Origin: Mangrovibacterium lignilyticum
Lineage (GTDB): Bacteria > Bacteroidota > Bacteroidia > Bacteroidales > Prolixibacteraceae
Length of the DNA stretch: 64,000 nucleotides
Direction: 5' to 3'
NCBI RefSeq assembly: GCF_010882175.1
Contig: NZ_WKLH01000001.1
Location: 1,133,464-1,197,463, forward strand
How positions within the stretch are numbered: the stretch's first letter is position 1; every line of letters begins with the position of its first letter. The position numbers were made by a program, and so were the translations under genes. This document shows positions 23,684-59,770 of the stretch, piece after piece. The notes under the pieces are model-generated. The model did not search any database and was not told the DNA's origin. It worked only from the letters and a program-made list of their open reading frames with translations.

Positions 23684-23691
23684 GACTTTGG

Positions 23692-23764
<73 letters not shown>

Positions 23765-23786
23765 AAAAATCAAAAAGTATAAAAAG

Positions 23787-23870
23787 TACCCGGAGCGGGA
23801 CTTGAACCCGCACGATCATAATGATCATTGGATTTTAAGTCCAACGTGTCTACCATTCCACCATCCGGGC
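23787..23870 (-). tRNA. tRNA-Leu (TAA)
   Basis: An 84-nt class II tRNA with a long variable arm. The acceptor is GCCCGGA pairing with TCCGGGT, and the anticodon loop is CTTAAAA with anticodon TAA. CCA is not encoded. It sits between the two tRNA-Gly genes. Confidence 0.96.
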
Positions 23871-23881
23871 ATCCTGGATGG

Positions 23882-23954
<73 letters not shown>

Positions 23955-29905: not shown

Positions 29906-30823
29906 TCAGAAAATCCGGAAACTCTTCTTTGTCTGCGGAAATACGACGTCCGTTGGTGCAAACGCCAATAAAAAACCTCCTCCTCCCGATCCGAGCAATT
30001 TCACCAGAATTCCTTTCATCTTCAATTCACTTATGAATCCCAAGCATGAATCCGGGATCATTTCCTGAAAATGTTTCAATTGAAACTCATGGAATTTTCC
30101 AAGCTGATGAAAAAAGGACTCTTTTTCATTATTCTGAAAAGCCTCAACCGTTGCGTCGTTGGCCGGCAAATAGCGTTTTTGAAACAAATCCGAAAAATCA
30201 GCTGTTTCCATCTTCTCCAAAAAAATCTTGACTAACGGTGAGGTCGGACTCGTAATTCCGGTATCAATCAGGTAAACTTTCCACGGCTGATCCTCCAATT
30301 TTAAATCGGGTAACCAGATCTTACCATTCTCCACTAAAACCGGCCTGTTCAGAAACGAAACCAAAGGATCAAGCCCCGAACTTCGCCCATGAAAATAGGA
30401 TTCAAGCACGATGAAATCTTCCCGTAACCGGCTTATGATTTCTCCAGGATTCTCCAGCTTGAAGTCATTTTGGTTCAAAAAGCTGCCATAGCGATCGTAT
30501 AAGCCAGCACAAAGTGCTCCCGAACTTCCGACTCCATATTGCAAAGGGATGTCGGATTCAAAGTACAATCCGCTTTCTAAATCACTTTTTAGCTTCTCTA
30601 CGTCAAGCGGAAAATTCATCTGCGAAGCAAGCTTTTTATCTTCAAACCAACTGGCAAAACGATCCAATTCCGTCGCACTGTTCTGTTGGCACTCGTTCGG
30701 AGCAACGATATCCATCTTCGCAAAGTAACCTTTGAATTTCGGGAAGGGAACAGCCAGAGCCTTTGCTCCAAACATCAAACCGTATTCGCCAAACAGCAAT
30801 AATTTCGCGGGATACTTCTTCAT
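29906..30823 (-). CDS. mevalonate kinase-like GHMP kinase
   Basis: The product has 305 residues. It opens with PAKLLLFGEYGLMFGAKALA (GHMP motif 1), the ATP loop is YGVGSSGALCAG (about 97-108), SYFHGRSSGLDPLVS supplies the substrate Asp region, and motif 3 is KLLGSGGGGFLLAF near the end. It converts mevalonate to 5-phosphomevalonate. It is the last gene of the mevalonate operon, 3 bp after diphosphomevalonate decarboxylase. GHMP kinases are hard to tell apart by eye, so the exact step rests on context and on comparison with the second GHMP kinase at 31945. Confidence 0.8.
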   Translation of the reverse strand: MKKYPAKLLLFGEYGLMFGAKALAVPFPKFKGYFAKMDIVAPNECQQNSATELDRFASWFEDKKLASQMNFPLDVEKLKSDLESGLYFESDIPLQYGVGSSGALCAGLYDRYGSFLNQNDFKLENPGEIISRLREDFIVLESYFHGRSSGLDPLVSFLNRPVLVENGKIWLPDLKLEDQPWKVYLIDTGITSPTSPLVKIFLEKMETADFSDLFQKRYLPANDATVEAFQNNEKESFFHQLGKFHEFQLKHFQEMIPDSCLGFISELKMKGILVKLLGSGGGGFLLAFAPTDVVFPQTKKSFRIF

Positions 30824-30826
30824 ACG

Positions 30827-31858
30827 CTAAGCTTTCAACGGGCCATCACCAACCTGGTCATCCAGCCACTCCCCGTTTTCGGTATGATACAACAATTCGC
30901 CCTTAATAAAAGCATGCACCGCTTCCTGATCTTCTCTCCAATACAAAAGATGAATATTCGGTCCTGCATCAATTGTAAATCCGACCGGCAAACCCGTCTG
31001 CTGGCGGAATTCGCGAATCAGTTCAATAATTGCCACACTTCCGGGCTTCAACAGTAAAAAGGACGGAGTTGAACTCATCATCAGAGCATGTAGGCTCAGC
31101 GCTTCCTGCTCCACCAGATCAATAAAGGCCATGCGATTACCATCCTCCTTCATGAACCGCATGAGCTGTTCAATGGTACTGTTCACTTGTTTTAGACGAG
31201 CGGCCTGGTACGGATGATTATTCATCAACTCGTGACCTGCAGAACTGGAAACCTTTTTCTTTTTCGAATCAACCAGCAACACGGCATCACAAAGCGAAAA
31301 ATAGCTTTTGTGAATCTGTTTTGAAACCGGAACAGCATAACAATCGGTAGACCCCGGCAAAGCATTTGATTTTCCCCACCAGGCGAAACCGCCGTACACC
31401 GATCGGGATGCACTCCCACTTCCCATTCTGGCTAGTCGAGAGGCTGCCTGAAAAAACTTATCATCATCATTTTCAACTCCCGTTATCTGCCGGCTTAAAT
31501 CCTCCAGACAAAGTGCCAAGGCACCAAACGCCGAAGCAGAAGAAGCAATTCCGGTAGAATGAGGAAACGTATTTTCACTCGCTATTTGAAAAGCATAATC
31601 ATTGATCCAGGGACGTTCAATTGACAACTTATCCAGGTATTTTTCAATCCGAGTGGCAAAAGGAGATTCCTTCCCCTCAAAAAGAAATTCCAGCTTCATG
31701 CTTTTTGCAGCTTGCAGGCTAACCGTTGTCCTTGTTCGGGCAAGCTTCAGACTAAAGCTCAACGAAGGATTCATAGGCAATTGTTCCGGCTTTTTGCCCC
31801 AATATTTCACCAATGCGATATTGGATGGACAAAGCCAGGTTGAAGTATAAGTTGTCAT
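30827..31858 (-). CDS. mvaD: diphosphomevalonate decarboxylase
   Basis: The product has 343 residues. The diagnostic N-terminal motif SNIALVKYWGKKPEQLPMNP, the phosphate loop PHSTGIASSASAFGALAL and the C-terminal VGFTIDAGPNIHLLY are all present. It converts mevalonate diphosphate to isopentenyl diphosphate with ATP use and loss of CO2. It lies in the middle of the mevalonate operon, 86 bp after the upstream GHMP kinase gene and 3 bp before mevalonate kinase. Confidence 0.95.
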   Translation of the reverse strand: MTTYTSTWLCPSNIALVKYWGKKPEQLPMNPSLSFSLKLARTRTTVSLQAAKSMKLEFLFEGKESPFATRIEKYLDKLSIERPWINDYAFQIASENTFPHSTGIASSASAFGALALCLEDLSRQITGVENDDDKFFQAASRLARMGSGSASRSVYGGFAWWGKSNALPGSTDCYAVPVSKQIHKSYFSLCDAVLLVDSKKKKVSSSAGHELMNNHPYQAARLKQVNSTIEQLMRFMKEDGNRMAFIDLVEQEALSLHALMMSSTPSFLLLKPGSVAIIELIREFRQQTGLPVGFTIDAGPNIHLLYWREDQEAVHAFIKGELLYHTENGEWLDDQVGDGPLKA

Positions 31859-31944
31859 GTAGAATTATCCTTGTTTTGAGGTCAGAGACCTATTATTTCA
31901 TATCTCTTTGTATCGGAACTGTTTGGCACAGAAATCAGAAACGC

Positions 31945-32883
31945 CTATTTCGTTGCATTCAACACCAGCTCCCGCCAAGGAAATACAACGCGCAATCCTT
32001 TTTGTTTAAAATAATTCAATACGTCACGATCATCCATCGGTGTTGCAATCAGATAAAAATCACCACCCCATGCGCCAAGCGACTTGACTTCGCCATTAAA
32101 ATCGGAGAAGTACTGCGATTTTACGGTTGGACAGTCGAGCAACGCGGAGACCATGGCCTCATGCTCGACAATCAGTTTCTGGAAATCGTCCAACTTGGTG
32201 GCTCCCGCAAAAGCGTCTGAAAGCTGATTCATTTGCTCAACCTGCTGCAAGCTTACCGCTCCTTCACTCAGAAACCGTCTCACCTCATTCCGGGTACTTT
32301 TTTTGGCTCCTGAATAAATAAAATACAACTGATCCAAAAACGAATAGTCCAAATTTACAGGTTTGGGAACTTCATTCTTCGTATAAAAAATAGGTCCTTT
32401 GGCTGTCGCGCAAGCGATATCAAAACCACTTCCGTGGAAAACAAGTTCGTTCAATTTGAACGGATCAACTTTCGCCCATGATGCCAGATTCGCGATCAAC
32501 GTACTACTGCTGCCCAATCCCCATTGGTTGTTAAAATCGATGTAAGTGTGCACATCAAGAGGGCGCTGCGGCTCAAAAGCCGGGTTCATTTGTTGAATGG
32601 TGCGAAAAGTGTCGCGTAAAATCACCGCTTTCTCAGCATCCGAACTATTGACAATCTCAAAATCGGGAAGTTTCAAATCGCAGGAGAACCAAAGTCCTTC
32701 CTGCATAAAAGCTTTCCAGCTCAAAATTCCGTCCTCTTTCCCGGCAGCAACTTCCATGCGCTGTCCGTATTGCAACGGCAAGGCAATAGATTTTGCTCCG
32801 CGCAGCACAAAATACTCCGCGGTCAATAACAACTTGCCGTGTGCCTGATAAGTCTCTTTGACTGTTTTAACGTCCTGTATCAT
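31945..32883 (-). CDS. GYDIA-type GHMP kinase, putative phosphomevalonate kinase
   Basis: The product has 312 residues. Motif 1 is AHGKLLLTAEYFVLRGAKSI, the ATP loop is WGLGSSSTLIANLASW and the family signature is HGSGFDIACA (the GYDIA motif with F for Y). It corresponds to the Bacteroidota GHMP kinase found with mevalonate genes and presumed to be the phosphomevalonate kinase; the step itself is inferred from the pathway gap. Its first 17 bp overlap the end of the HMG-CoA reductase gene, so translation is probably coupled. Confidence 0.85.
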   Translation of the reverse strand: MIQDVKTVKETYQAHGKLLLTAEYFVLRGAKSIALPLQYGQRMEVAAGKEDGILSWKAFMQEGLWFSCDLKLPDFEIVNSSDAEKAVILRDTFRTIQQMNPAFEPQRPLDVHTYIDFNNQWGLGSSSTLIANLASWAKVDPFKLNELVFHGSGFDIACATAKGPIFYTKNEVPKPVNLDYSFLDQLYFIYSGAKKSTRNEVRRFLSEGAVSLQQVEQMNQLSDAFAGATKLDDFQKLIVEHEAMVSALLDCPTVKSQYFSDFNGEVKSLGAWGGDFYLIATPMDDRDVLNYFKQKGLRVVFPWRELVLNATK

Positions 32884-34192
32884 GTTTCAGATATTGCTCA
32901 ACATCGGAAAAACTCACTTCCCGTTTTTCAAAATAAAGGCGTGCGGCCGCTTTTTGTTCATCGGTCGCATTCAATGTATTTAAAATATTGCTCAAATGCA
33001 TCTTCATATGCCCTTGCTGGATGCCAGTTGTCACCAACGCACGTACAGCCGACCAGTTCGATGCCAGACCAGCTACTGCCAGGTATTGCATCAGTTCCGT
33101 TGCCGATGGATTTTCAAGAATCTGCATCGCCAAACGTGCCATCGGATGCAAAGCAGTAACGCCGCCAACCACACCCACTGCCAGCGAAAGCTCCATTGAA
33201 AAAGTGAAGATCCCGTTCTCATTTTTGGCTTCACTCAAACCGGCATATTTACCGTTACGGGCAGCAAAGGCATGTCCTCCTGCTTCAATGGCACGAAAAT
33301 CGTTTCCCGTAGCCAAAGCCAGTGCATCCACACCATTGAAAATTCCTTTGTTATGAGTCACCGCCCGTGATACGTCATTTCTCGAAATATGGACCGCACG
33401 AACAAACTTTTCCGCCAAACGGCAGGCCGCTTCCGGATCATCGTTTTCAGAAAGCTTCTCCACCGGACATTCGACCCAAACACGCACCTTACTAGCGGGC
33501 ACATAGTTCGAAAGAATGGCCATAATGATTTCCGCCTCACGTTCCTCAGCATCCCAATCAGCTTGACTTGAGAGCCAATGATTGAGACTTTTACCAAACT
33601 GCTCCAAACAGGAATTAATGAAATTGGCCCCCATCGCATCTCTTGTCTCAAAGGCCACATCAAGCTGATAGTAATCCGGTAAAATCCCGGGTAAATATTT
33701 TAATTCAATTGATAGGATACCGCCCCCGCGTTTCTCCATCTTCTGAGTAATCGGAGCCGCATCAACACGCAATTGCGTTTCAAGTTCGTTAAAGTGAAGC
33801 TTCAATTTATCCGGATTTCCTTTCCATGAAAAATGAAGCTGTCCTTTCTTTTCTGTTCCCAAATTCTCAACATGAAAGCCTCCCCGTTTCGCCCAAAATC
33901 CGGCTGCTTTTCCTAAAGCGGCTACCACCGAACTCTCTTCAGTGACAAACGGGAATACACGATACTGCCCATTCACCAGGAAATTAGGCGCCACTGTGAA
34001 AGGAAAATGGAAATTGGAAAGGTGATTCTCGCTTAGGTCTTCAATGATTTTTTGCGCAGCCACATTCTTCGATTCAAAATCAGCCAGAAAATCAGCCGAT
34101 GAAGCGTCTAACCCCAACTGTTGAATCAGCCAGTCCGTTTTTTGCGTTTTGCTGAATTTTGAGAATCCGGATATCGGTCTATTTTCCTTCAT
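32867..34192 (-). CDS. hydroxymethylglutaryl-CoA reductase, class II type
   Basis: The product has 441 residues. Catalytic blocks are FPFVTEESSVVAALGKAAGF (Glu), VTHNKGIFNGVDALALATGND (Lys and Asp) and GIQQGHMKMHLSNIL (the late His). The length and wording fit the class II bacterial enzyme. It reduces HMG-CoA to mevalonate with two NAD(P)H, or runs backwards in mevalonate users. It overlaps fni by 14 bp and the GHMP kinase by 17 bp. Because the genes around it form a full mevalonate pathway, the reductive direction is preferred. Confidence 0.93.
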   Translation of the reverse strand: MKENRPISGFSKFSKTQKTDWLIQQLGLDASSADFLADFESKNVAAQKIIEDLSENHLSNFHFPFTVAPNFLVNGQYRVFPFVTEESSVVAALGKAAGFWAKRGGFHVENLGTEKKGQLHFSWKGNPDKLKLHFNELETQLRVDAAPITQKMEKRGGGILSIELKYLPGILPDYYQLDVAFETRDAMGANFINSCLEQFGKSLNHWLSSQADWDAEEREAEIIMAILSNYVPASKVRVWVECPVEKLSENDDPEAACRLAEKFVRAVHISRNDVSRAVTHNKGIFNGVDALALATGNDFRAIEAGGHAFAARNGKYAGLSEAKNENGIFTFSMELSLAVGVVGGVTALHPMARLAMQILENPSATELMQYLAVAGLASNWSAVRALVTTGIQQGHMKMHLSNILNTLNATDEQKAAARLYFEKREVSFSDVEQYLKHDTGR

Positions 34193-35189
34193 AATTCGGG
34201 TTTATACGCAAATATGCCTCTGCCATTCGGTAGGCTTTCAACAAATTTTCGATATAAATCTTCAAGTCTTTATAATCACCTGTTGCATGTTTCAACACCG
34301 ACGAAGCCATGCCAAAAACAGCCGGAAGTTTACTTTTTGACACCAGGTAATAGCCATCCAAATAGGTCTTCACTCCGCCCGAAATAATTAAAGCGGGACA
34401 AGCCATATCTTGCTCTTCCACTAAACTGTTCACATCCCGTAGCATTTGTGAAGCATTTTGTCCGACGAAAGCAAACGGCTGATGCAGCTGTTTCAACGCC
34501 TCATCTTCCCGCATCATCTCAAGCTTTGAAAAATTAGTACCACCATAAGCTGCAAACTCAATCGCTGCCAAAGGCATTTTCAACAACTGCTTCAGACTTT
34601 CGCGCCCCATGCCTTGCCCGACTTCTTTCACAATCAGCGGAACATTAATACGCGTCATCAATTGCTGAATAGTCTCCAGTGGAGCTTGTGAAATGTGATC
34701 TCCTTCAGGCTGGAACCACTCTTGTAGCGGATTGACATGCACAATCAAACCATCGGCACGCAGATTTCCAACCAAATCGATGATCGCTTGTTCCTGCTTT
34801 TTAGCTAACAACTGCTCGACTTGTGCCACACCGAGATTTGCCCAGAATGGTTGTTCAGAACCGATTTCATCGCGCACATCAAAATCGGCCCAATAGGTTT
34901 TATCGAACAGAATTTTTCGGCACGAGCCCAAGCCCATTCCCAAACCAAATTCACGGCAGGCGCGTGCCAGATTTCGGTTGATGTCTTTGGCCACACCCGT
35001 TCCGCCAGTCATGCTCGACACCCACAAGGGGGCCCGCATCTGCTTGCCTAAAAATGAAAATGGTTGTGGATCTTTCTCCGGATGAGCAGACAGCAAAGGT
35101 TCGTAAACGAATCGACGATCCTGCTCCGGATAACTGGTTTGCGAATCAAAGGCCATCTGAATGTGCTCGAGTTTTCGGTCTTTTTCCAT
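34179..35189 (-). CDS. fni: type 2 isopentenyl-diphosphate isomerase (FMN)
   Basis: The product has 336 residues. Type 2 features are KLEHIQMAF at the start, WVSSMTGGTG, FGLGMGLGSCRKIL, VKEVGQGMGRESLKQL and AAYGGTNFSKLE, which make the FMN and phosphate sites in a TIM barrel. It interconverts isopentenyl and dimethylallyl diphosphate. It is the first gene of the mevalonate operon and has a candidate promoter and operator of its own (35210-35236). Confidence 0.95.
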   Translation of the reverse strand: MEKDRKLEHIQMAFDSQTSYPEQDRRFVYEPLLSAHPEKDPQPFSFLGKQMRAPLWVSSMTGGTGVAKDINRNLARACREFGLGMGLGSCRKILFDKTYWADFDVRDEIGSEQPFWANLGVAQVEQLLAKKQEQAIIDLVGNLRADGLIVHVNPLQEWFQPEGDHISQAPLETIQQLMTRINVPLIVKEVGQGMGRESLKQLLKMPLAAIEFAAYGGTNFSKLEMMREDEALKQLHQPFAFVGQNASQMLRDVNSLVEEQDMACPALIISGGVKTYLDGYYLVSKSKLPAVFGMASSVLKHATGDYKDLKIYIENLLKAYRMAEAYLRINPNYEGK

Positions 35190-35209
35190 GAGTATCTATA
35201 AAAGGTAAC

Positions 35210-35236
35210 AGGCAAATGTAAACAATGCATTTGCCT
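35210..35236 (-). promoter_or_regulatory. promoter with overlapping inverted repeat before the mevalonate operon
   Basis: TACATTTG (35220-35213, minus) is a perfect -7 match, giving an 18-nt 5' UTR to fni. It lies inside the perfect inverted repeat AGGCAAATG-N9-CATTTGCCT (35210-35218 and 35228-35236). A dimeric regulator bound there would block the promoter. No TTG is found at N19. Confidence 0.5.
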
Positions 35237-35323
35237 ATTCCTTCCTATTCAGTTCAAAAATATTTTTGCGAGAACTTTGTACGCCGGAGCAGGTGCTCCA
35301 CCCGCCATATCTCCATCTCTTTC

Positions 35324-36484
35324 TTACTTGTCTTTCAGCACATCGCGCGAAATCACCATACGCAACACTTCCGACGTTCCCTCTCCGATCGATAATAAAC
35401 GCTGGTCGCGGAAGAATCGTTCAATCGGGTATTCATCGTTACGGAAGAAACCGGCGCCACCAAAAATCTGCATCGCTTCGCTGGCTACATCACTGGCAAC
35501 CTGCGAGCAATACAATTTTGCCATCGCTGACTGTGTTCCAAAAGGTTCACCATTGTCTTTTAACCAACAAGCATGGTAAAGCAAGTTTCGCGCAGCTTCG
35601 ATCTTAGTCGCCATGTCGGCCAGTTTAAAGGCGATGGACTGAAATCCGGAGATCGCATGACCAAACTGCTTTCGTTTCTTCGAAAACGACACTGCCATTT
35701 CGTAAGCCCCCTGTGCTAACCCAAGCCCCATTGCTGCAATCGACAAACGACCGGAGTCAATGGTTTTCAGCATGATTTTAATGCCCTGTCCGCGCTCTCC
35801 AAGCTGGTCTTCAGCTGGAATTTCAACATCTTTGAAATAAACCATTCCATTATCGGCGGCCCGCCACAAAAACTTTTGTTTCATAAACTCACGGGTGTAG
35901 CCCGGCGTTCCTTTCGAAACCATGAAAGTGGTAAATTCCTTCTTCCCATCAGGCCGCATACCTGTTTGGGCAACAAAACTAATTCCGGCTACCATGTCCG
36001 AAGCAGCATTGGTGATGTACTTTTTATGCCCATTCACCAACCAGCCTTCTTTTGTTGCCGTTGCGGTCGTTTCAACACCCTGTGCATCCGAACCGGCATT
36101 TTCTTCGGTCAACCCAAAAGCCCAAAGGTTTTCAGCTGTGCACAAGGCTGGTAAATATTTTTGCTTTTGAGCTTCCGTCCCAAAGGCCATTATCGGCCCA
36201 ATACCGAGTGAATTATGTGCAGCTACCGTAGCAGCCACCGAACTGTCAACACGAGCCAACTCTTCCACAGCAATAATGAATGAAAGATAATCACTGCCTT
36301 GTCCACCATATTCAACGGGAGCATGCATCCCGAAAATATTCAGACTACGCATCGACTTGATCAACTCCATCGGAAAGATCTCCAAAGCCTCAAATTCGCC
36401 AATTACAGGCTTGATTTTTTCTTCAGCAAAAGCCCTTACTTTGGCTCTCACCTCGTGGTGTACTTTCTTGAGTAAAGCGTTCAT
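35324..36484 (-). CDS. acyl-CoA dehydrogenase
   Basis: The product has 386 residues. FAD and acyl-CoA sites are AFGLTEENAGSDAQG, YITNAASDMVAG and FGHAISGFQSIAFKLADM, with the C-terminal IGEGTSEVLRMVISRDVL. The Glu of GEGT (about residue 368) is at the catalytic-base position of short- and medium-chain acyl-CoA dehydrogenases; isovaleryl-CoA dehydrogenases I recall have Ala there and their Glu elsewhere (YER). Context suggests isovaleryl-CoA, but this residue argues for another short or branched acyl-CoA. The frame starts with a GTG at 36508; the ATG at 36484 is preferred from the family's N-terminus. Confidence 0.9.
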   Translation of the reverse strand: MNALLKKVHHEVRAKVRAFAEEKIKPVIGEFEALEIFPMELIKSMRSLNIFGMHAPVEYGGQGSDYLSFIIAVEELARVDSSVAATVAAHNSLGIGPIMAFGTEAQKQKYLPALCTAENLWAFGLTEENAGSDAQGVETTATATKEGWLVNGHKKYITNAASDMVAGISFVAQTGMRPDGKKEFTTFMVSKGTPGYTREFMKQKFLWRAADNGMVYFKDVEIPAEDQLGERGQGIKIMLKTIDSGRLSIAAMGLGLAQGAYEMAVSFSKKRKQFGHAISGFQSIAFKLADMATKIEAARNLLYHACWLKDNGEPFGTQSAMAKLYCSQVASDVASEAMQIFGGAGFFRNDEYPIERFFRDQRLLSIGEGTSEVLRMVISRDVLKDK

Positions 36485-36570
36485 AAATGGTTTTTCGTTT
36501 AAGGTCACTGACCTATTCTCTACTTTAGTTGTTTGCCACCGGGCAATATGAAAGACTTGAAACCACCATT

Positions 36571-38541
36571 TTACTGGGATTCCAAATCAACTAATATTTC
36601 TTTATCCTGAACGATTTTGCCTTTTGTCACATGAATGGTTTTCACAACCGCATCAACCGGGCTTTGTATCGTAAATTCAGTTTTCATTGATTCAATAACC
36701 AACAAATTCTGTCCTTTAATCAACTTGTCGCCCGCAGCTACAAACACGTCAATTACTTTACCGAACAAATCGGCAACAATGCGCGACTGTAACTCGCCGT
36801 TCAATTTCGACGATTGCCTGTTTAAACTCACCTGACCAGGCACCTGTTTACTCTTCAATTCAAAACGGAAGGTTTGATACTGGATTTCAGTTAAATTCTC
36901 CTTTTCAATCCAAAAGACATCCTGTTTTTTTCCGTTTAGGTTGAATGAAACGCAATTATTATTGTAAAAAACACGATTAACGGCAAGCGGTTCATTTTTG
37001 ATGAAAAATAAGTAGTCTTTTTTATGCTTTCGAACATTGATTTGACAAATTTTGCCATCAACATCCAACTCAAAAGCCTGATTGAGACGCCAAAACCCAA
37101 ACTTATTTTCGTCCGTGGTTTCTTCATAAAAATGATGCAAAATATAAGCGATGGCAGGAACTGCCGGGGAAATCACGCCCCGCGTATCTTCCAACTCTTG
37201 CAATAAGTCAGGCAATTTTTGTTCAATGTACTTCGTGTGAATCTTCATGCTTCGAAAAGCATCGTCTGCCGTCAGTATTTTCAAGAAAGACTGATTGGTT
37301 TTAATTCCCCCCAAAAAATGCAAATACAGGGCCTGACTCATATCAGCGATGGCCTGCCTGCGAGACGCCGCATGAACAACTAACTTCCCCAACATGGAAT
37401 CGTAGGCCGGTGAAAGCTGACTTCCCGCACCGACAAAACTATCCCAACGCACGTTATCCGGAAATTGAACAGCAGAGATTGTCCCCGATGAAGGCACAAA
37501 CTGATGCTGCGGATCTTCCGCACAAATACGCACCTCAATAGCATGTCCGCAAGCCTGAATTTCATCCTGCTTCAAAGGCAAACCATTTCCTGCAGCAATG
37601 TCGATCTGCCATTCCACCAAATCCAGTCCTGTGATAGCTTCCGTTACCGGATGCTCTACCTGAAGCCGGGTGTTCATCTCCAGGAACCAGCAGTTCTCCC
37701 GCTCGTCAACCAAAAACTCGATCGTTCCGGCTCCACGATATTTTGATGCCTTAGCTATTTGTAAGGCGAATTGATGCAAATTGGCTTTCGTTTCATCTGT
37801 AAGATTTGGGGCAGGTGCCTCTTCTACCACCTTTTGGTAGCGCCGTTGTAGACTGCAATCGCGTTCAAACAGGTGCACTGCATTTCCGTTACCGTCGCCC
37901 ATCAGCTGAACTTCAACATGGCGAGCTTGTGCCAAATATTTTTCGACGAACAACTCGCCATTACCAAAGTACTCGTGGGCCTGACGTTGTGCTTGTTGCA
38001 ATGCCAGTGGCAATCCGGAGGCTTCCTCCACAATCTGCATGCCCTTGCCTCCACCTCCGGCTGCGGCCTTGACTAGCAAGGGAAATTCCAAACCGCTGAT
38101 GTCTCGAATAATATCACTCACCGCTCCCCGAACGCCGGGAATTACCGGAACACCGAGTTCCTTTACAAAATCAATCGCCTGAGTTTTCTCGCCCATCAAG
38201 CTGATCTGCTCCGGCGTAGCTCCGATGAAAGCAAGACAATTGGCCTCAACCAAAGCTGCAAAAGCAGCATTTTCGGATAAAAATCCGTAGCCGGGATGAA
38301 TGGCGTCAGCTCCGGCTTCCTTTGCGAATTGAACCAACTTTTGCTGATTCAAATACGTTTCAGACAAGGTGCTCCCATCCAGTAAAAATGCCTCATCAGC
38401 TAAAGCTACATGAAGCGATCCCGCATCGTCCGACGCATAAACTGCCGCGGTACGAATGCCCATCTTTTGAGCCGTACGAATAATCCGAACGGCTATTTCA
38501 CCCCGGTTCGCAATGAGTATTTTATGAAATTTACGTTTCAA
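36571..38541 (-). CDS. acyl-CoA carboxylase alpha subunit (methylcrotonyl-CoA carboxylase-like)
   Basis: The product has 656 residues, the length of MCC alpha. The biotin carboxylase part (1-about 445) shows KILIANRGEIAVRIIRTA, the ATP loop AAGGGGKGMQIV and EMNTRLQVEHPVTE. A middle BT-like domain follows, and the C-terminal biotinyl domain has IESMKTEF, with Lys as the biotin site (about 622). It carboxylates biotin with bicarbonate and ATP for the beta subunit encoded at 39361. Its ATG overlaps the stop of the hydratase gene (38538-38541). Confidence 0.93.
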   Translation of the reverse strand: MKRKFHKILIANRGEIAVRIIRTAQKMGIRTAAVYASDDAGSLHVALADEAFLLDGSTLSETYLNQQKLVQFAKEAGADAIHPGYGFLSENAAFAALVEANCLAFIGATPEQISLMGEKTQAIDFVKELGVPVIPGVRGAVSDIIRDISGLEFPLLVKAAAGGGGKGMQIVEEASGLPLALQQAQRQAHEYFGNGELFVEKYLAQARHVEVQLMGDGNGNAVHLFERDCSLQRRYQKVVEEAPAPNLTDETKANLHQFALQIAKASKYRGAGTIEFLVDERENCWFLEMNTRLQVEHPVTEAITGLDLVEWQIDIAAGNGLPLKQDEIQACGHAIEVRICAEDPQHQFVPSSGTISAVQFPDNVRWDSFVGAGSQLSPAYDSMLGKLVVHAASRRQAIADMSQALYLHFLGGIKTNQSFLKILTADDAFRSMKIHTKYIEQKLPDLLQELEDTRGVISPAVPAIAYILHHFYEETTDENKFGFWRLNQAFELDVDGKICQINVRKHKKDYLFFIKNEPLAVNRVFYNNNCVSFNLNGKKQDVFWIEKENLTEIQYQTFRFELKSKQVPGQVSLNRQSSKLNGELQSRIVADLFGKVIDVFVAAGDKLIKGQNLLVIESMKTEFTIQSPVDAVVKTIHVTKGKIVQDKEILVDLESQ

Positions 38542-39344
38542 TTTTCGCTAACTTTTAATGCATTCCAGTCGGGCTTTCTTTTATCCAAAAACGCCCGCAG
38601 TCCTTCTTGCCCTTCTTCCGATTCCAATATTTCGGCCAAAACCCCTGCTGTATATTCACTGCTGTCGATATTCACCTCGCCCGAATCAACTTTCAAAATT
38701 AACTGCTTGCATGCTTTCACTGCATTTGGCGAAGCCTGCCTCAATTCCGAAATTAGCTTATCGACCACTTGCATCCGCTGATCATCACCGGCTACAAAAT
38801 CCACCAAGCCAATAGCATGTGCTTCACTAGTCCAAATGCGTTCACCTGAGAACATCAGTTTTTTCAGGTTTTGAGTTGACAATCGTTTCGCCACAAAAGG
38901 CAAAATCGTAGCCGGAATAATACCCAGCTTCACCTCGCCAAATGCAAAAGCTGTTGCCTCCTCTGCAATTGCAAAGTCGCAGGCAGCCAAAATACCGTTC
39001 GCGCCTCCCAACACATTTTTATGTGCCGCGCAAATGGTCACTTTCGGGAAGTTGTATATTTTTTTCAGCAAATCGGCCATATGCAGGTATTCCTGCCAGT
39101 TCTCCGACTTGTCGCGGTTTACAGCATTGGCAAACCAACTGATGTCGGCACCGGCACAAAATGATCTCCCTTCACCGGCAATCACTACAAAGTGAATCTG
39201 TTCGTCTTCTTCCAACTCATCCAGCACCTCGTGTAACTCCGAAATCAACTCCGGATTCAATGCATTGTGTTGCCTTGGGCGGTTCAACAAAATAGTTGCC
39301 CGGTCATTTTCAAGCTGAAGAAGGATATGTTTGAATTGTTTCAT
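38538..39344 (-). CDS. enoyl-CoA hydratase family, methylglutaconyl-CoA hydratase-like
   Basis: The product has 268 residues with a crotonase fold. The oxyanion hole residues lie in GEGRSFCAGADISWF and KNVLGGANGILAACDFA, and the catalytic Glu is in FGEVKLGIIPATILPF. The wording of the last block fits methylglutaconyl-CoA hydratase (LiuC/AUH), which makes HMG-CoA. Position between the two carboxylase subunits supports this. The frame begins at 39380, but the ATG at 39344 starts with the usual KHILLQLENDRATILLNRP and avoids overlap with the upstream gene. Confidence 0.87.
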   Translation of the reverse strand: MKQFKHILLQLENDRATILLNRPRQHNALNPELISELHEVLDELEEDEQIHFVVIAGEGRSFCAGADISWFANAVNRDKSENWQEYLHMADLLKKIYNFPKVTICAAHKNVLGGANGILAACDFAIAEEATAFAFGEVKLGIIPATILPFVAKRLSTQNLKKLMFSGERIWTSEAHAIGLVDFVAGDDQRMQVVDKLISELRQASPNAVKACKQLILKVDSGEVNIDSSEYTAGVLAEILESEEGQEGLRAFLDKRKPDWNALKVSEN

Positions 39345-39360
39345 TGTTTCAATTTTTGAT

Positions 39361-40926
39361 TTACATGCGGAACACACCATAATTGGCTTGTCGAACCGGC
39401 TGATTCAAGGTCACCTTAAACAGGAATCCGAGCAGGTCGCGTGTATCTACCGGATCGAAAATCCCGTCGTCCCACAAACGTGACGAACTGTAATAAGCCG
39501 TACTTTCCTGATCAAATTGCTCAATCAGACTGTTTTCCTTACCGCTTCCTCCAATAGTTTGCAGTACGCCCGAAGCCTGTTCTCCACCCATCACAGCAAT
39601 GCGTGAGTGAGGCCACATCAGCATAAAATCAGGATCGTAAGCGCGACCTGCCATCGCGTAATTTCCGGCACCAAACGAGCCACCCATGACCAGAGTAATC
39701 TTTGGAACAGTTGAATTGGCCACAGCGTTTATTAGTTTCGCCCCATCGCGGGCAATGCCTTCGTGTTCGTATTTTTTCCCGACAATAAATCCACTGATAT
39801 TCTGCAAAAACAACAGCGGAACTTGTCGTTGATTACACAGTTGAATAAAATGGGCTCCTTTACGCGCAGCTTCGGCTGTCAGGAAACTCTGGTTTCCTAA
39901 AATCCCAATTGGAATACCCTTAATTCGGGCAAAGCCGGTCACCAACGTTTTGCCGTACTCCGCTTTAAATTCCGGAAAACGGCTCCCGTCAACCAGTCGC
40001 TCAATAATAGCCCGCACATTAATCGGCTTTTTCAAATCGGTTGACAGAAAATTGTACAGTTCTTCTGCCGGATAAACCGGTTCAACCGATTTTTCAATAT
40101 CAATTTCCCGCTTCGAAACACGAGGTAACCCCTCAACCAAATCACGACAAATGCGCAAGGCATGTACATCGTCATCCGCTAAATGATCAGCTACACCCGA
40201 AATTTTGGTGTGCACATCGCCTCCGCCCAGATCCTCGGCGGAGACTTCTTCTCCTGTGGCAGCTTTTACCAGCGGCGGGCCACCAATAAAGATTGTCCCT
40301 TGGTTGCGCACAATAATGGTTTCGTCGCACATGGCCGGAACATAAGCACCTCCGGCAGTACACGAACCCATAACTACAGCGATTTGCGGAATACCTTCAG
40401 CCGATAAACGGGCCTGATTAAAGAATACCCGCCCAAAGTCGAATCGATCGGGGAAAACCTGCGCTTGTTCGGGCAGGAAAATACCTCCCGAGTCAACCAG
40501 GTAAATGCAGGGCAGCTGATTTTGCATGGCAATTTCCTGTGCCCGAATATGTTTCTTAATGGTCTCGCGAATGTAGGTTCCCCCTTTTACCGTGGCGTCG
40601 TTCGCCACGATCATGCACTCGCGACCATGCACAAGCCCGATTCCGGCAATAATTCCGGCTGAGGGGAAAGCGTCATCATACTGCCCGTAAGCAGCAAAGG
40701 ACGAAAGCTCAACAAAAGGCGTACGCGGGTCAACCAGCAAGTCGATGCGTTCGCGCGCCAAAAGCTTGCCCCTCTCCCGATGTTTCGCCACGGCTTTGAC
40801 GGTCCCATGCGAAGTGACAGCTACTACACGACGGTGAAATTCAGCAATTGCTTCGCGATATTCAGCGCCAGGTTCGTTACCGTTACTTGCCTTTTCGGCA
40901 GGATCATTGTGTTTAATTTTCTCCAT
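39361..40926 (-). CDS. acyl-CoA carboxylase beta subunit (methylcrotonyl-CoA carboxylase-like)
   Basis: The product has 521 residues and is a carboxyltransferase. Features are [18 protein letters not shown], the first oxyanion block [32 protein letters not shown] with [17 protein letters not shown], and the second block [20 protein letters not shown]. It transfers CO2 from biotin to an acyl-CoA, by context 3-methylcrotonyl-CoA. It is the first gene of the nine-gene run on the minus strand, with 317 bp of free DNA and a divergent AraC gene upstream. Confidence 0.93.
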
Positions 40927-41243
40927 ACTCTGATTAAACAGAAAAAGATTGAAAAATCTCTTACTACGACAATAAAGCAGGACATAAGTTCACCTAATAC
41001 GCTACTTTTTTCATGACACCAGGAACCAAACGCCAACTGTCTGAAATACATCGAATCGAATAAGTCTTCCAATCCCAATAAAGCGGAAAAGTATAAAAGA
41101 TATTTATATCTTCATCTTTTAGTGCGATTTCAAAGTGAAATAATAATTCAAATTTAGCATGCCTGCTGCCAATGTTTAAATGAAATTATGCAACTTTCAC
41201 CTTGCAAGCACTTTTTACTTAATCGTTGTTCTAGTTTTTGCCT
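40927..41243. other. divergent regulatory region, carboxylase operon and AraC gene
   Basis: 317 bp, AT-rich, no gene seen on either strand. It should hold the promoter of the nine-gene operon and that of the AraC regulator, but no perfect TTG-N19-TAnnTTTG was found; TAGTTTTTG at 41232-41240 is a poor match. Confidence 0.45.
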
Positions 41244-42074
41244 ATGATCGAAACGTTCAAAATATTTCAGCTTTCTTCCGAGGATGTGGAAAGCATTCAG
41301 GCGTCGGAGAACGAACCACACACACACGACTACGAAGAGTTATTAATTGGCGTGGAAGGGCGTCTGGAGCATTTCATCGATTTTGAATCGACCAAAATGG
41401 ATGCCCCTTTTGTGAGTTTCGTAACCAAAGGTAAAGTTCACCGGGTAATCCCTTATTTAAAGGATGGTCGATGTAATATTTGGGCCGTCAGGTTTCGGAG
41501 TGAGTTCATTCCGGAAACGACTTTCCAACTGTACGCATACTATCATAATAATGCCAACATTCCGCTCCCTTCCAACCGATGCTTTCAACGTATGGAGACC
41601 ATTTGCGAGTTGATGCAGGAAGAAACCCGGGAACGGAATCCGGATTATTCGATCATCCGCCATTTGCTGAGTGCCTTATTCACAATGGTGGAAGCCGAAC
41701 GCAAGAAACTGGAGCCCGATCAATCGCAGTTGGTAAAAACGCAGAGTTCAACCTTCAAGACCTTCCTGCTTACCCTCGAAGAAAATTTCCGCCGTCCGGA
41801 AGGCGTGGAGTTTTATGCTGAGAAGTTATTCATGAGCAGTCGCAACCTCAATATTATTTGCCACAACATCATGCAACTAAGTGTTTCGGAGTTGATTGAA
41901 ACCCGCAAACTGATTGAAGCCAAAAACCTGCTAATGACCACCGACAAAACTATTGCCGAGATCGGGTTCGAGCTGGGATACAATGAAAAATCATACTTCA
42001 CCAGCGTGTTTAAACGGAAGTCCGGCATGACTCCAAGCGAATTCCGCAAGGAGATGCAACAGCTCATTTCCTGA
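41244..42074 (+). CDS. AraC family transcription regulator
   Basis: The product has 276 residues. The N-terminal cupin-like sensor has HTHDYEELLIGVEGRLEHFIDF, and the C-terminal double helix-turn-helix (about 175-272) ends with TIAEIGFELGYNEKSYFTSVFKRKSGMTPSEFRK. ATG 41244 is used. It is divergent from the carboxylase-mevalonate run and 106 bp upstream of the YceI gene, and could control either; the sequence does not decide. Confidence 0.92.
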   Translation: MIETFKIFQLSSEDVESIQASENEPHTHDYEELLIGVEGRLEHFIDFESTKMDAPFVSFVTKGKVHRVIPYLKDGRCNIWAVRFRSEFIPETTFQLYAYYHNNANIPLPSNRCFQRMETICELMQEETRERNPDYSIIRHLLSALFTMVEAERKKLEPDQSQLVKTQSSTFKTFLLTLEENFRRPEGVEFYAEKLFMSSRNLNIICHNIMQLSVSELIETRKLIEAKNLLMTTDKTIAEIGFELGYNEKSYFTSVFKRKSGMTPSEFRKEMQQLIS

Positions 42075-54592: not shown

Positions 54593-56950
54593 TTATTTTT
54601 TCATTAGCCGAACTTCGTAGATTCCGCCGGCAACAGAACTGGACTTCGCTTCAAACTTCACCCGCAATTTGCCCTCCGCCTGATCTAAAACCGACTGCGG
54701 AATTTCGTAATCAACGGTAAAGAATTCAAAGCCCTTGCTGCCATCCAGCGTCACATCGGCCAATTTTTCACCGTTTAGGCTAATGGCAAACGCTCTTCCA
54801 CTATCCAGTCCGAAGTACATGATGCGCAATTTACGGGCTTCTCCGTTTTCATCGTTCAACTGATAACTAAACCAACCGCTTGCATCGCGCCAGTGCTTGC
54901 CTTGATTGACCCCCGAGTTGGTATTTTCAGACTGAATAAAGTGATCGGATTCGGGCTGTTGTTCGCCCGGAAAAACCAAATCGATGGTTGCTTCCGCCAA
55001 GGCTTTCTTCTCCGCTTCTTCCTTCGCCGTTTTATTTTCTAGGGCCTGCAAATCAGCGGCACTCACCACCTGAAAATAAATCATATACCGAGACTCGTGC
55101 AAGCGGAAGAATGGAATCAGCTCCAAATCTTTCCCGTCAGACAAACCACTCAGTGTAAACGTCATTGGCTTTCCGGCAACCGGCTTCACCATCGATGCCA
55201 ATTCTGAAGCATCGCCAACGACCACCGGTATTTCGTTCAAGGGATATTTGGGGCCGGCAGCAATGTGTCCGCCACGGCTGTCGTCGGCATACAAACCGAC
55301 CTGATTCGCGGTATCTGTTTTCGCCGCTAAAACAATTGGTCCGCGAAGAATCGAATAATAATTTTCACCGTCAGGCAATTGCTCAATAGTTGTTTGCATC
55401 GGGAAGTTCAACGCAACTTTGTCGCCTTTCGTCCACGTGCGTTTCAGAGCAACATACTCACCCGGCTTTCCGGCAACCGCCTCATCTTTCCCATTTACCC
55501 GGACTTTCAAAGCTCCGGTTTCCACCCATTTCGGATAACGAATGTACAGGGTGAACTCGCTTTTTTTCTTCGGATTGATGGTCAGCGTGCTGGTCTCCGC
55601 GTCCGGGAATTTGGTTTCCTGTGTGATCTCCATCGCCTTTTCTTCCCAGTTCAGGGTTGAAGGGATAAAGAGATTCACATAAATATCGTCACCGGAATGT
55701 GCATAAATTAGCTCTCCGTATTTCGTGTGATTTTCGAGCCCGGAACCAACGCAACACCAGAAGCTGGTTTGCGGTTGCGAGTACACCCGGTAATGACCGG
55801 GACGCATCGGCGTGAAATAGACAAAGCCTCCGTGATCGGGCTCTTCAGTCGACAAAATATGGTTGTACAAAGCTCGTTCGTAGTAATCCATGTATTTGAC
55901 TTCCGGATCACTCAGGAACAAGTGCTTCGTTAATTTCAGCATGTTGTAGGTGTTGCAGGTTTCCGGTCCCTGCTCGCTCTCAATCATCGAGCTAAAATCA
56001 TCAATCGGATGAAAATGCTCACGAACGCTGTTCCCTCCGATGGAGACCGAGCGCTTGTCAACCACGTTTTCCCAGAAATAGCGCGCAGCATCAGCCCACG
56101 CCTCATCGCCATCAACTTCGGCAACACGTTTATAACCGATAACTTTAGGTATTTGCGTGTTGGCGTGCATCCCAGTCAGGTGATCTTCGTGCTTGATCAA
56201 AGGTTCCAGAATACTTTTTTGCGAGAACTGTTTCGCCAGCTTCACGTATTTCTCATCGCCTGTAATGGCTGCCACATCGGCAAAGACTTCGTTTAGTCCA
56301 CCATGTTCACTACGCAGCATATCCTGAATTTGATCATCCGTCAGGTTTTGCACCAGATGAATCGCCCAATCGGTGAGTTTAATCAGCATCTCTTTGGCTT
56401 CATCACTGCAACCAAAAAGATAGGCATCGCAAAGTCCGGCATAAATTTTATGAATATTATACAGTGGCACCCACTTCTTATTCAGGCTGAAAGATCCGGC
56501 ATCAATCTTGCCTTCTGAAATTTCCTTCCACATGGCCTTTCCCCCCGGAACACCGGAAAGATAACCATCGCCACTGGCATCCTGTGCGCGCTTCAGTTCC
56601 GACAACATATAGTCCATTCGCTTTTTCATGCGCTGATCGCCGGTAGCTGCGTACATCTTGGACAAAGCCGATAAGTAGTGACCACCAATATGACCATCCA
56701 AGCCGGTATTTTCCCAGTTCGTGTAGTTTTTGGCCTTCGGCTGAAGACCGCCTTCTTTGAGGTAAGGCGCTAACAACCGATCCATATCCAAAGCAAGAAT
56801 ATAGTCCATATCGGTCATCATGGCTTTTTTAAAGGGGCTATCGAGCAAACGCACCTCCGACAGCGGGAACGCCTCGGTTGCTTGCCTTTGCTGCCCAACC
56901 GCCAACATCGGCACCAAGCCAATCAGGAAGATTAAATTTCTAAGTTTCAT
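54593..56950 (-). CDS. GH127 beta-L-arabinofuranosidase-like glycoside hydrolase
   Basis: The product has 785 residues. A signal peptide ends VPMLAVGQ. The GH127 (former DUF1680) alpha/alpha barrel spans about 25-620; the zinc ligands are all present: Glu and Cys of PETCNTYN (about 330 and 332) and CysCys of FWCCVGSGLENHTKYGE (about 399 and 400). An extra C-terminal beta domain (about 640-785, KHWRDASGWFSYQLNDENGE) may bind sugar. GH127 enzymes release beta-L-arabinofuranosides by a Cys nucleophile. It is the last gene of the operon, 6 bp after the Tat-type protein gene. Confidence 0.92.
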   Translation of the reverse strand: MKLRNLIFLIGLVPMLAVGQQRQATEAFPLSEVRLLDSPFKKAMMTDMDYILALDMDRLLAPYLKEGGLQPKAKNYTNWENTGLDGHIGGHYLSALSKMYAATGDQRMKKRMDYMLSELKRAQDASGDGYLSGVPGGKAMWKEISEGKIDAGSFSLNKKWVPLYNIHKIYAGLCDAYLFGCSDEAKEMLIKLTDWAIHLVQNLTDDQIQDMLRSEHGGLNEVFADVAAITGDEKYVKLAKQFSQKSILEPLIKHEDHLTGMHANTQIPKVIGYKRVAEVDGDEAWADAARYFWENVVDKRSVSIGGNSVREHFHPIDDFSSMIESEQGPETCNTYNMLKLTKHLFLSDPEVKYMDYYERALYNHILSTEEPDHGGFVYFTPMRPGHYRVYSQPQTSFWCCVGSGLENHTKYGELIYAHSGDDIYVNLFIPSTLNWEEKAMEITQETKFPDAETSTLTINPKKKSEFTLYIRYPKWVETGALKVRVNGKDEAVAGKPGEYVALKRTWTKGDKVALNFPMQTTIEQLPDGENYYSILRGPIVLAAKTDTANQVGLYADDSRGGHIAAGPKYPLNEIPVVVGDASELASMVKPVAGKPMTFTLSGLSDGKDLELIPFFRLHESRYMIYFQVVSAADLQALENKTAKEEAEKKALAEATIDLVFPGEQQPESDHFIQSENTNSGVNQGKHWRDASGWFSYQLNDENGEARKLRIMYFGLDSGRAFAISLNGEKLADVTLDGSKGFEFFTVDYEIPQSVLDQAEGKLRVKFEAKSSSVAGGIYEVRLMKK

Positions 56951-56956
56951 GTCAGG

Positions 56957-57511
56957 TTATAGTTTGATCTGATATTTGCACCGGTCGTTTCCCCGATGAA
57001 TGGAGGAAATTACGTTGGCCTGAACTTGATGCCCTGCTACTTTCGAGAACATCAACTCGGCAAAACCCTCGGAGCAGTAACACAGCACGCCAATGTCCAA
57101 ACCTTGCTGATGGTTGACCATTGGGCACACGCAAAAGTTTTTGTTTTCGTCGGCATGAATGATTCCGCTTTCTTCATCGAAATCGACTTTCCAGTTCCAA
57201 CTGTCTTCCAGAAAATTGATAAACTCTTCCAGTTTACCGGCATAAGGTTGCAAAACCTCATCCATCTTCAGCTGGTCGTAATGCGCACGGGCACAACTTT
57301 TCATGATTTGACGAGATACTTCGCTGTCTGTTTGTTCATCCAGGCTAATCACCAATATTGAGATCCACTCCTGCATCAGCTTCTTTTGAGCATCCCCGGC
57401 AGCAGAATCATTATTGGCTTCAACTTGTTGACCAGCGAGGAAAGAGAAACCGCAGAAACACCCTCCTGCGGCACAGGCTTTTTTTAGGAAATTTCTGCGG
57501 TCTTTATTCAT
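56957..57511 (-). CDS. Tat-type secreted Cys-rich protein (DUF6144-like)
   Basis: The product has 184 residues. The N-terminus MNKDRRNFLKKACAAGGC has a twin-arginine motif (RRNFLKK) and Cys-rich start, followed by FCGFSFLAGQ. The domain continues with NWKVDFDEESGIIHADENKN, then FCVCPMVNHQQGLDIGVLCYCSEGFAELMF and ISSIHRGNDRCKYQIKL. I recall a DUF6144 group with this Cys pattern; the function is unknown, perhaps a bound metal or cofactor, since Tat exports folded proteins. It is embedded between GH43 and GH127 genes in the arabinoside operon. Confidence 0.75.
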   Translation of the reverse strand: MNKDRRNFLKKACAAGGCFCGFSFLAGQQVEANNDSAAGDAQKKLMQEWISILVISLDEQTDSEVSRQIMKSCARAHYDQLKMDEVLQPYAGKLEEFINFLEDSWNWKVDFDEESGIIHADENKNFCVCPMVNHQQGLDIGVLCYCSEGFAELMFSKVAGHQVQANVISSIHRGNDRCKYQIKL

Positions 57512-57532
57512 TTATTTTTGTTTAAGTCTATC

Positions 57533-59722: not shown

Positions 59723-59770
59723 AGTTTTTCCCTTAGTTCTCATATATAGATGAAGATTGTTTTTGTGTTC

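Follow-up and report, generated by a model that had tools for sequence, protein, structure and literature searches.

A nine-gene run in Mangrovibacterium lignilyticum joins leucine-type acyl-CoA genes to mevalonate pathway genes and points to a leucine-to-isoprenoid shunt

Leucine carbon and the mevalonate pathway in described systems

A leucine shunt is known from labeling in Halobacterium salinarum and Leishmania mexicana, where, according to a 2021 review, leucine is converted in five steps to 3-hydroxy-3-methylglutaryl-CoA (HMG-CoA), which then enters the mevalonate pathway and bypasses acetyl-CoA (PMC8791446). In Trypanosoma brucei, isovaleryl-CoA dehydrogenase, 3-methylcrotonyl-CoA carboxylase (MCC), and a hydratase supply HMG-CoA to the mevalonate pathway, and deletion of the dehydrogenase abolishes leucine incorporation into sterols (PMC5993337). 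Here we analyzed a 64,000-nucleotide stretch of the Mangrovibacterium lignilyticum genome (contig 8, bases 1133464 to 1197463; referred to below as the window), in which leucine-type acyl-CoA genes and mevalonate pathway genes form one run of nine genes. We estimate a probability of roughly 0.73 that these nine genes are a single operon for a shunt from leucine (or isovalerate) to isoprenoids.

The run resembles each of these systems and differs from each. The shunt of H. salinarum and L. mexicana was demonstrated by labeling in an archaeon and a protozoan, whereas the cluster described here is bacterial and lies in a genome in which neither HMG-CoA synthase nor HMG-CoA lyase was detected (PMC8791446). 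T. brucei is a protist, and it has a candidate HMG-CoA synthase gene (PMC5993337). The Liu cluster for leucine and isovalerate likewise groups MCC beta, hydratase, MCC alpha, and acyl-CoA dehydrogenase genes, but it ends in HMG-CoA lyase (LiuE), whereas the run in the window continues with mevalonate genes; the same source reports that Myxococcus xanthus LiuC acts in both directions and stated in 2022 that the mevalonate pathway is independent of branched-chain amino acid degradation (PMC9636800). With the classical mevalonate pathway the run shares HMG-CoA reductase (HMGR), mevalonate-type kinases, diphosphomevalonate decarboxylase, and a type 2 isomerase, but HMG-CoA synthase is undetected here. 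The 2021 review notes that, to its authors' knowledge, the leucine shunt had not been built in Escherichia coli (PMC8791446), and in the open-licence literature, with subscription papers outside our scope, we recognized no bacterial leucine shunt that dispenses with the synthase. At the level of genes, the data support a leucine shunt carried as a conserved bacterial operon where HMG-CoA synthase was not detected.

Gene content of the nine-gene run

The M. lignilyticum genome (5.63 Mb in 16 contigs) is 100% complete and 1.4% contaminated. The initial annotation had described an uninterrupted minus-strand run of nine genes at 29906 to 40926, and all nine open reading frames (ORFs) were recovered there on that strand, encoding in order MCC beta (MCCb), a crotonase (ECH), MCC alpha (MCCa), an acyl-CoA dehydrogenase (ACAD), type 2 isopentenyl-diphosphate isomerase (IDI2), HMGR, a GYDIA-family kinase, diphosphomevalonate decarboxylase (MVD), and a mevalonate-kinase-like protein (MVK).

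The first gene (39361 to 40926, 521 amino acids [aa], PF01039) encodes the carboxylase beta subunit, for which human MCC beta is the closest solved structure (673 bits); structures deposited under the name propionyl-CoA carboxylase scored 274 bits or less, except 9tps (636 bits) and AccD1 4q0g, deposited as "acetyl-/propionyl-" (662 bits). A geranyl-CoA carboxylase of acyclic terpene utilization (Atu) was ruled out as its identity, the beta subunit of that enzyme reaching 451 bits against the 673 bits for MCC. The crotonase (38538 to 39380, 280 aa, PF00378) is a probable 3-methylglutaconyl-CoA hydratase and would catalyze the step that yields HMG-CoA. MCC alpha, with its biotin carrier domain (36571 to 38541, 656 aa), is assigned from family and structure matches, the closest solved structures being biotin carboxylase (448 bits) and human MCC alpha (445 bits). 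The acyl-CoA dehydrogenase (35324 to 36508, 394 aa) is of a short-chain type by sequence and, by context, a probable isovaleryl-CoA dehydrogenase. With the substrates of the dehydrogenase and crotonase taken from context, the enzyme set from isovaleryl-CoA to HMG-CoA is complete in the run.

The set from HMG-CoA to isopentenyl diphosphate (IPP) and dimethylallyl diphosphate (DMAPP) is complete as well, with weaker assignments for the kinases. Two proteins exceed their NCBIfam cut-offs, namely, the GYDIA-family GHMP kinase, a probable phosphomevalonate kinase with no solved relative at an E value of 0.001 (31945 to 32883, 312 aa; NF040656, 310 bits, cut-off 225), and MVD (30827 to 31858, 343 aa; TIGR01240, 181.5 bits, cut-off 171). 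Three match below cut-off: IDI2 (34179 to 35189, 336 aa; TIGR02151, 209 bits, cut-off 281), class II HMGR (32867 to 34192, 441 aa; PF00368, 256 bits; TIGR00532, 239.5 bits, cut-off 260), and the GHMP kinase MVK, which closes the run (29906 to 30823, 305 aa; TIGR00549, 67 bits, cut-off 163) and weakly matches the solved mevalonate kinase 2x7i (E value of 2e-5). HMGR residues E85, E86, K282, D298, and H395, which we take to be catalytic, are invariant across 14 aligned sequences.

Most junctions are tight, with overlaps of 20 bases (MCCb/ECH), 4 bases (ECH/MCCa), 14 bases (IDI2/HMGR), and 17 bases (HMGR/GYDIA) and gaps of 62 bases (MCCa-ACAD), 86 bases (GYDIA-MVD), and 3 bases (MVD-MVK). The acyl-CoA and mevalonate halves meet across the largest gap, 134 bases at 35190 to 35323, in which a scan listed no promoter- or terminator-like site; the scan did not rise above shuffled sequence and is therefore uninformative.

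HMG-CoA synthase, HMG-CoA lyase, and DXR in the genome

The initial annotation had found both HMG-CoA synthase and HMG-CoA lyase missing from the window, and this absence held genome-wide in profile searches. PF01154, which in a control search matched in 7 of 14 reference genomes, matched nothing in M. lignilyticum, nor did an alignment of three Bacteroidota HMG-CoA synthases at an E value of 1e-5. One alignment member (L077) had been checked against solved synthases and NCBIfam (TIGR01835, 265 bits, cut-off 360).

For the lyase, a search with PF00682 (HMGL-like) returned six proteins, of which a 2-isopropylmalate synthase and a pyruvate-carboxylase-B-like protein lay above the cut-offs of their own NCBIfam models and a citramalate-synthase-like, a homocitrate-synthase-like, and two 4-hydroxy-2-oxovalerate-aldolase-like proteins lay below theirs. 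All six were rejected as HMG-CoA lyase; the NCBIfam lyase model was the best for none, and one (L004) was also compared with solved structures. Because a 2-isopropylmalate synthase is present, M. lignilyticum may be able to make leucine. The homocitrate-synthase-like gene (G000:C10:815758-816522; NifV model, 421 bits, cut-off 463) has upstream of it a gene for a protein that we take to be NifB-like, a neighborhood hinting at nitrogen fixation.

Conservation of the run and its relation to HMG-CoA lyase

We surveyed 119 genomes of the order (presumably GTDB Bacteroidales), mostly one per family. HMGR was present in 38, DXR in 115, carboxylase beta in 52, and PF01154 in 2 (G010 and G042), both of which lack HMGR; none of the 38 HMGR genomes had a synthase by PF01154 or by the three-synthase alignment at an E value of 1e-5. 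The carboxylase, counted at an E value of 1e-100, was found in 35 of the 38 HMGR genomes versus 17 of the 81 others (Fisher P value = 6e-14, with genomes treated as independent and phylogeny uncorrected). These counts include fragments in G092 and G107 and matches of only 46 to 48% identity in G047, G055, and G094; leaving out the latter three gives 33/38 versus 16/81. The HMGR genomes without a carboxylase are G036, G112, and G116.

The surroundings of 40 of the 43 reductase places in the order were read, the remainder being the one in the window and two of G116, which were left out. As the initial annotation had proposed checking, the gene order is kept in relatives: another 8 genomes in the sample, from 7 families, have runs arranged as in the window. 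With M. lignilyticum, this makes 9 linked genomes in 8 families, a recurrence that is more than chance. The run was read in G016, G028, G038, G046 (with the MVK match missing), G073, and G084; in G118 the contig breaks off within or just past the reductase. In G011, of the same family and genus as G118, carboxylase beta and the crotonase are found on a separate contig, whose end falls within carboxylase alpha. G039, possibly a further case, was counted as unlinked; its carboxylase contig stops within MCCa, and the start of its mevalonate contig falls within the isomerase.

In the linked genomes, the isomerase and then the reductase directly follow the dehydrogenase. The ACAD-IDI2 junction measures 2 to 26 bases in six loci (L033, L035, L038, L043, L068, and L133) and 40 to 257 bases in six others (L054, L055, L132, L134, L135, and L190), and in L047 the genes overlap, depending on the choice of start codon. 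This place is where some ordinary leucine clusters carry the lyase. Among 26 carboxylase regions read, five (L081, L084, L086, L090, and L094) have the order MCCb-ECH-MCCa-ACAD-HMGL, with dehydrogenases 54 to 58% identical to that of the window; two more (L082 and L083) have a lyase in another arrangement, and the other 19 have no lyase in the DNA read, although several of these regions run off the end of a contig or come from lyase-free genomes. In effect, the mevalonate genes occupy the place of the lyase. Some relatives have, between MCCa and ACAD, a protein of 600 to 622 aa that is missing from the window run and that we take to be AtuA/DUF1446-like (L096, 13377 to 15179; L098, 6311 to 8179).

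Linkage went together with the lack of a lyase. Class II HMGR was tabulated for 33 genomes, 9 linked and 24 unlinked, some of the unlinked ones resting on short contigs and two (G068 and G106) on fragments. Counting only frames of 280 to 325 aa with strong scores, the lyase was present in 0 of 9 linked versus 16 of 24 unlinked genomes (P value = 0.0009, phylogeny uncorrected). A 336-aa HMGL relative beside MCC in several relatives also matches solved lyases and lacks the GGCP motif, presumably the lyase signature, that was read in the 286-aa form; counting it as well gives 18 of 24 unlinked and still 0 of 9 linked.

Five genomes (G009, G013, G031, G112, and G116) were excluded from this table because their reductases are of another type. 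The reductase regions of the first four gave no tblastn match to the window HMGR, and the sequences of G009 and G013 were read; G116 was typed from score and frame length alone. The phylum has a second kind of HMGR, with frames of 745 to 792 aa (for example, L032 9384 to 11720 in G009) and, at the C terminus, about 380 aa that we take to resemble a small-molecule phosphotransferase; it lies outside the nine-gene system.

Named relatives show the same neighborhood. Among the matches listed, the closest named reductases are from a metagenome-assembled genome (MAG) of Sunxiuqinia (83% identity), from Tangfeifania diversioriginum (65%), and from two Prolixibacteraceae MAGs (62 to 63%), and the reductase tree agrees with this placement, Sunxiuqinia being a member of the Prolixibacteraceae, Bacteroidota. 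At least five of the 80 named loci listed are linked: the Sunxiuqinia MAG (L132), T. diversioriginum DSM 27063 (L133), the two Prolixibacteraceae MAGs (L134 and L135), and an uncultured member of the Bacteroidia (L190), with the contigs of L134 and L190 starting inside the acyl-CoA half. Two Ancylomarina loci (L166 and L171) have ACAD-IDI2-HMGR-GYDIA-MVD-MVK with no carboxylase or crotonase in the adjoining DNA read, and the other 73 have no carboxylase in the DNA read around the reductase. In a tree of 48 reductases, the 15 linked rows (Ancylomarina included) do not form one clade and need four changes, at least two of them forced by well-supported branches; G073 and G084 group among unlinked genomes that have a lyase. 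Therefore, loss or gain of the linkage took place repeatedly, or the genes moved.

Proposed route and alternative explanations

The chemistry runs from isovaleryl-CoA through 3-methylcrotonyl-CoA, 3-methylglutaconyl-CoA, HMG-CoA, and mevalonate to IPP. In the proposed shunt, the dehydrogenase would oxidize isovaleryl-CoA to 3-methylcrotonyl-CoA, the carboxylase would convert this to 3-methylglutaconyl-CoA, and the crotonase would hydrate the latter to HMG-CoA, which would make HMG-CoA synthase unnecessary; the reductase would then turn HMG-CoA into mevalonate, two kinases and the decarboxylase would carry mevalonate on to IPP, and the isomerase would convert IPP to DMAPP. The carboxyl group that the carboxylase introduces remains as the free carboxyl of HMG-CoA and then of mevalonate until the decarboxylase removes it, so the five carbons of isovaleryl-CoA should enter the isoprene unit intact, and M+5 isoprene units are predicted from 13C-isovalerate. 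We infer that the nine genes are cotranscribed, that isovaleryl-CoA is supplied to the pathway, and that flux runs in this direction.

The shunt was first suggested by the initial annotation, and at the gene level our results favor it: no synthase was detected in the genome, and the neighborhood is conserved in relatives. Further support comes from the lack of a recognized lyase, from the failure to detect a synthase in any of the 38 sampled HMGR genomes of the order, and from the 5 of 26 carboxylase regions in which a lyase takes the position that the mevalonate genes have in the window.

Several observations weigh against this reading, beginning with the two enzymes assigned by context. The crotonase reaches the cut-off of none of the NCBIfam families compared, its top matches being a general crotonase model (211 bits) and gamma-carboxygeranoyl-CoA hydratase (203 bits, cut-off 426). 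Among solved structures, it is closest to an unassigned crotonase (168 bits), with isohexenylglutaconyl-CoA hydratase 4zu2 fourth (127 bits) and the Myxococcus hydratase 5jbw/5jbx, which we take to be LiuC, at 78 bits. Its substrate is therefore assigned mainly from its place inside the carboxylase cluster; the motif GGANGILAACD is common to it and to the crotonases in the carboxylase clusters of relatives. By sequence, the dehydrogenase falls outside the isovaleryl-CoA dehydrogenase type: its best solved matches are butyryl or short-chain types (327 to 282 bits), and solved isovaleryl-CoA dehydrogenases score 226 bits or less. It bears the motif IGEGTSE, as do 29 of the 30 cluster dehydrogenases passing a length and score filter; we take its glutamate to be the catalytic base in the position of medium-chain acyl-CoA dehydrogenase and not that of isovaleryl-CoA dehydrogenase. 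The dehydrogenase query also matches two longer proteins in the genome (570 and 515 aa), and the one in the window is the sole short form found. Since this type adjoins HMG-CoA lyase in the leucine clusters of relatives, it is likewise assigned by context. The genome also has DXR, so isoprenoids can probably be made via the methylerythritol phosphate (MEP) route and the shunt would be at most a second route in M. lignilyticum. Finally, the 16 unlinked genomes with a lyase imply that the mevalonate genes are not the sole exit there.

An HMG-CoA synthase too diverged to be seen, or nonhomologous, might instead feed the mevalonate genes, with the leucine genes adjoining through a shared metabolite or regulator and giving minor input; we regard this as unlikely. 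It gains from G036 (97% complete), which has reductase, GYDIA, MVD, and MVK but in which carboxylase, synthase, and lyase were undetected and whose mevalonate run is without a known HMG-CoA source. It also gains from the wider phylum. In 247 genomes of the phylum, the reductase occurred in 56 and PF01154 above cut-off in 16, all within the class. Within the class outside the order, the synthase alignment, in a search that excluded 18 reductase genomes of other classes, matched in 16 of 37 reductase genomes, leaving 21 of 37 with no recognized synthase. These 21 suggest that the shunt extends beyond the order or, equally possibly and to its detriment, that the phylum has an unrecognized synthase. 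The carboxylase does not discriminate, being present in 20 of the 21 synthase-free and 15 of the 16 synthase-bearing genomes (the carboxylases listed outside the order are about 45 to 49% identical to the query); the one synthase-bearing genome without it, G201, is a single case that proves nothing. On the other hand, the alignment finds the synthase at an E value of 2.5e-214 or better in those 16 and finds nothing at 1e-5 in 38 of 38 genomes of the order, and if an unseen synthase did the work, linked genomes would not be expected to be the ones lacking the lyase. Complete or near-complete genomes with class II HMGR and no recognized synthase include G146, G174, G220, G235, G251, G315, and G343, which, like similar ones, are presumably flavobacterial.

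Very unlikely, in our judgment, are two independent operons lying side by side, the mevalonate half using imported mevalonate and the leucine half ending at HMG-CoA or leaking through a thioesterase. The halves were not found together in 24 of the 33 class II reductase genomes, some on short contigs, but where they are together the order is the same and the ACAD-IDI2 junction is as short as 2 to 26 bases in six loci, and a reductase would be pointless with imported mevalonate. Least probable of all is operation in reverse, in which mevalonate or HMG-CoA would be converted to isovaleryl-CoA as a precursor of iso-branched fatty acids. Hydratases and dehydrogenases can catalyze reversible steps, and the myxobacterial alternative route runs in such a direction and has HMG-CoA and a LiuC-type hydratase in common with the run, but it begins with HMG-CoA synthase, undetected here, and decarboxylates by enzymes other than a biotin carboxylase such as MCC, whereas two kinases and a decarboxylase commit the nine genes to IPP.

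Flanking genes and other features of the window

An AraC-type regulator gene (41238 to 42074, plus strand, PF12833) diverges at the 5' end of the run and is equally placed in the Sunxiuqinia MAG; it is a possible controller of the nine genes. A RicT-family gene converges at the 3' end. Elsewhere in the window, genes for GH127, GH43, and alpha-L-arabinofuranosidase stand in a row on the minus strand (54593 to 62365), probably an arabinan-degradation locus, and two tRNA-Phe genes and a Gly-Leu-Gly tRNA cluster lie at 1347 to 1650 and 23689 to 23954.

Implications for isoprenoid synthesis in Bacteroidales

The textbook start of the mevalonate pathway is HMG-CoA synthase, and an operon joining leucine breakdown to this pathway in genomes where no synthase was detected would be an exception among bacteria. 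The shunt, if true, would explain why the synthase went undetected in every sampled reductase genome of the order, and the nine genes would offer a ready-made enzyme set for producing terpenoids from leucine. Two HMGR genomes have no detected DXR, namely, G041, whose lyase match is split into two parts of a single contig, and G091 (99% complete), in which reductase, GYDIA kinase, and carboxylase are present, DXR, synthase, and lyase were undetected, and MVD and MVK were not located within the 20 kb read. It is conceivable, if rather doubtful, that the mevalonate pathway in a large part of the Bacteroidota has no synthase and draws on the leucine skeleton alone and that in genomes like G091 leucine or isovalerate is the only source of every isoprenoid, including cell wall lipid carriers and quinones. 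If the shunt operates, amino acid metabolism would be tied to the membrane and wall lipids of these bacteria.

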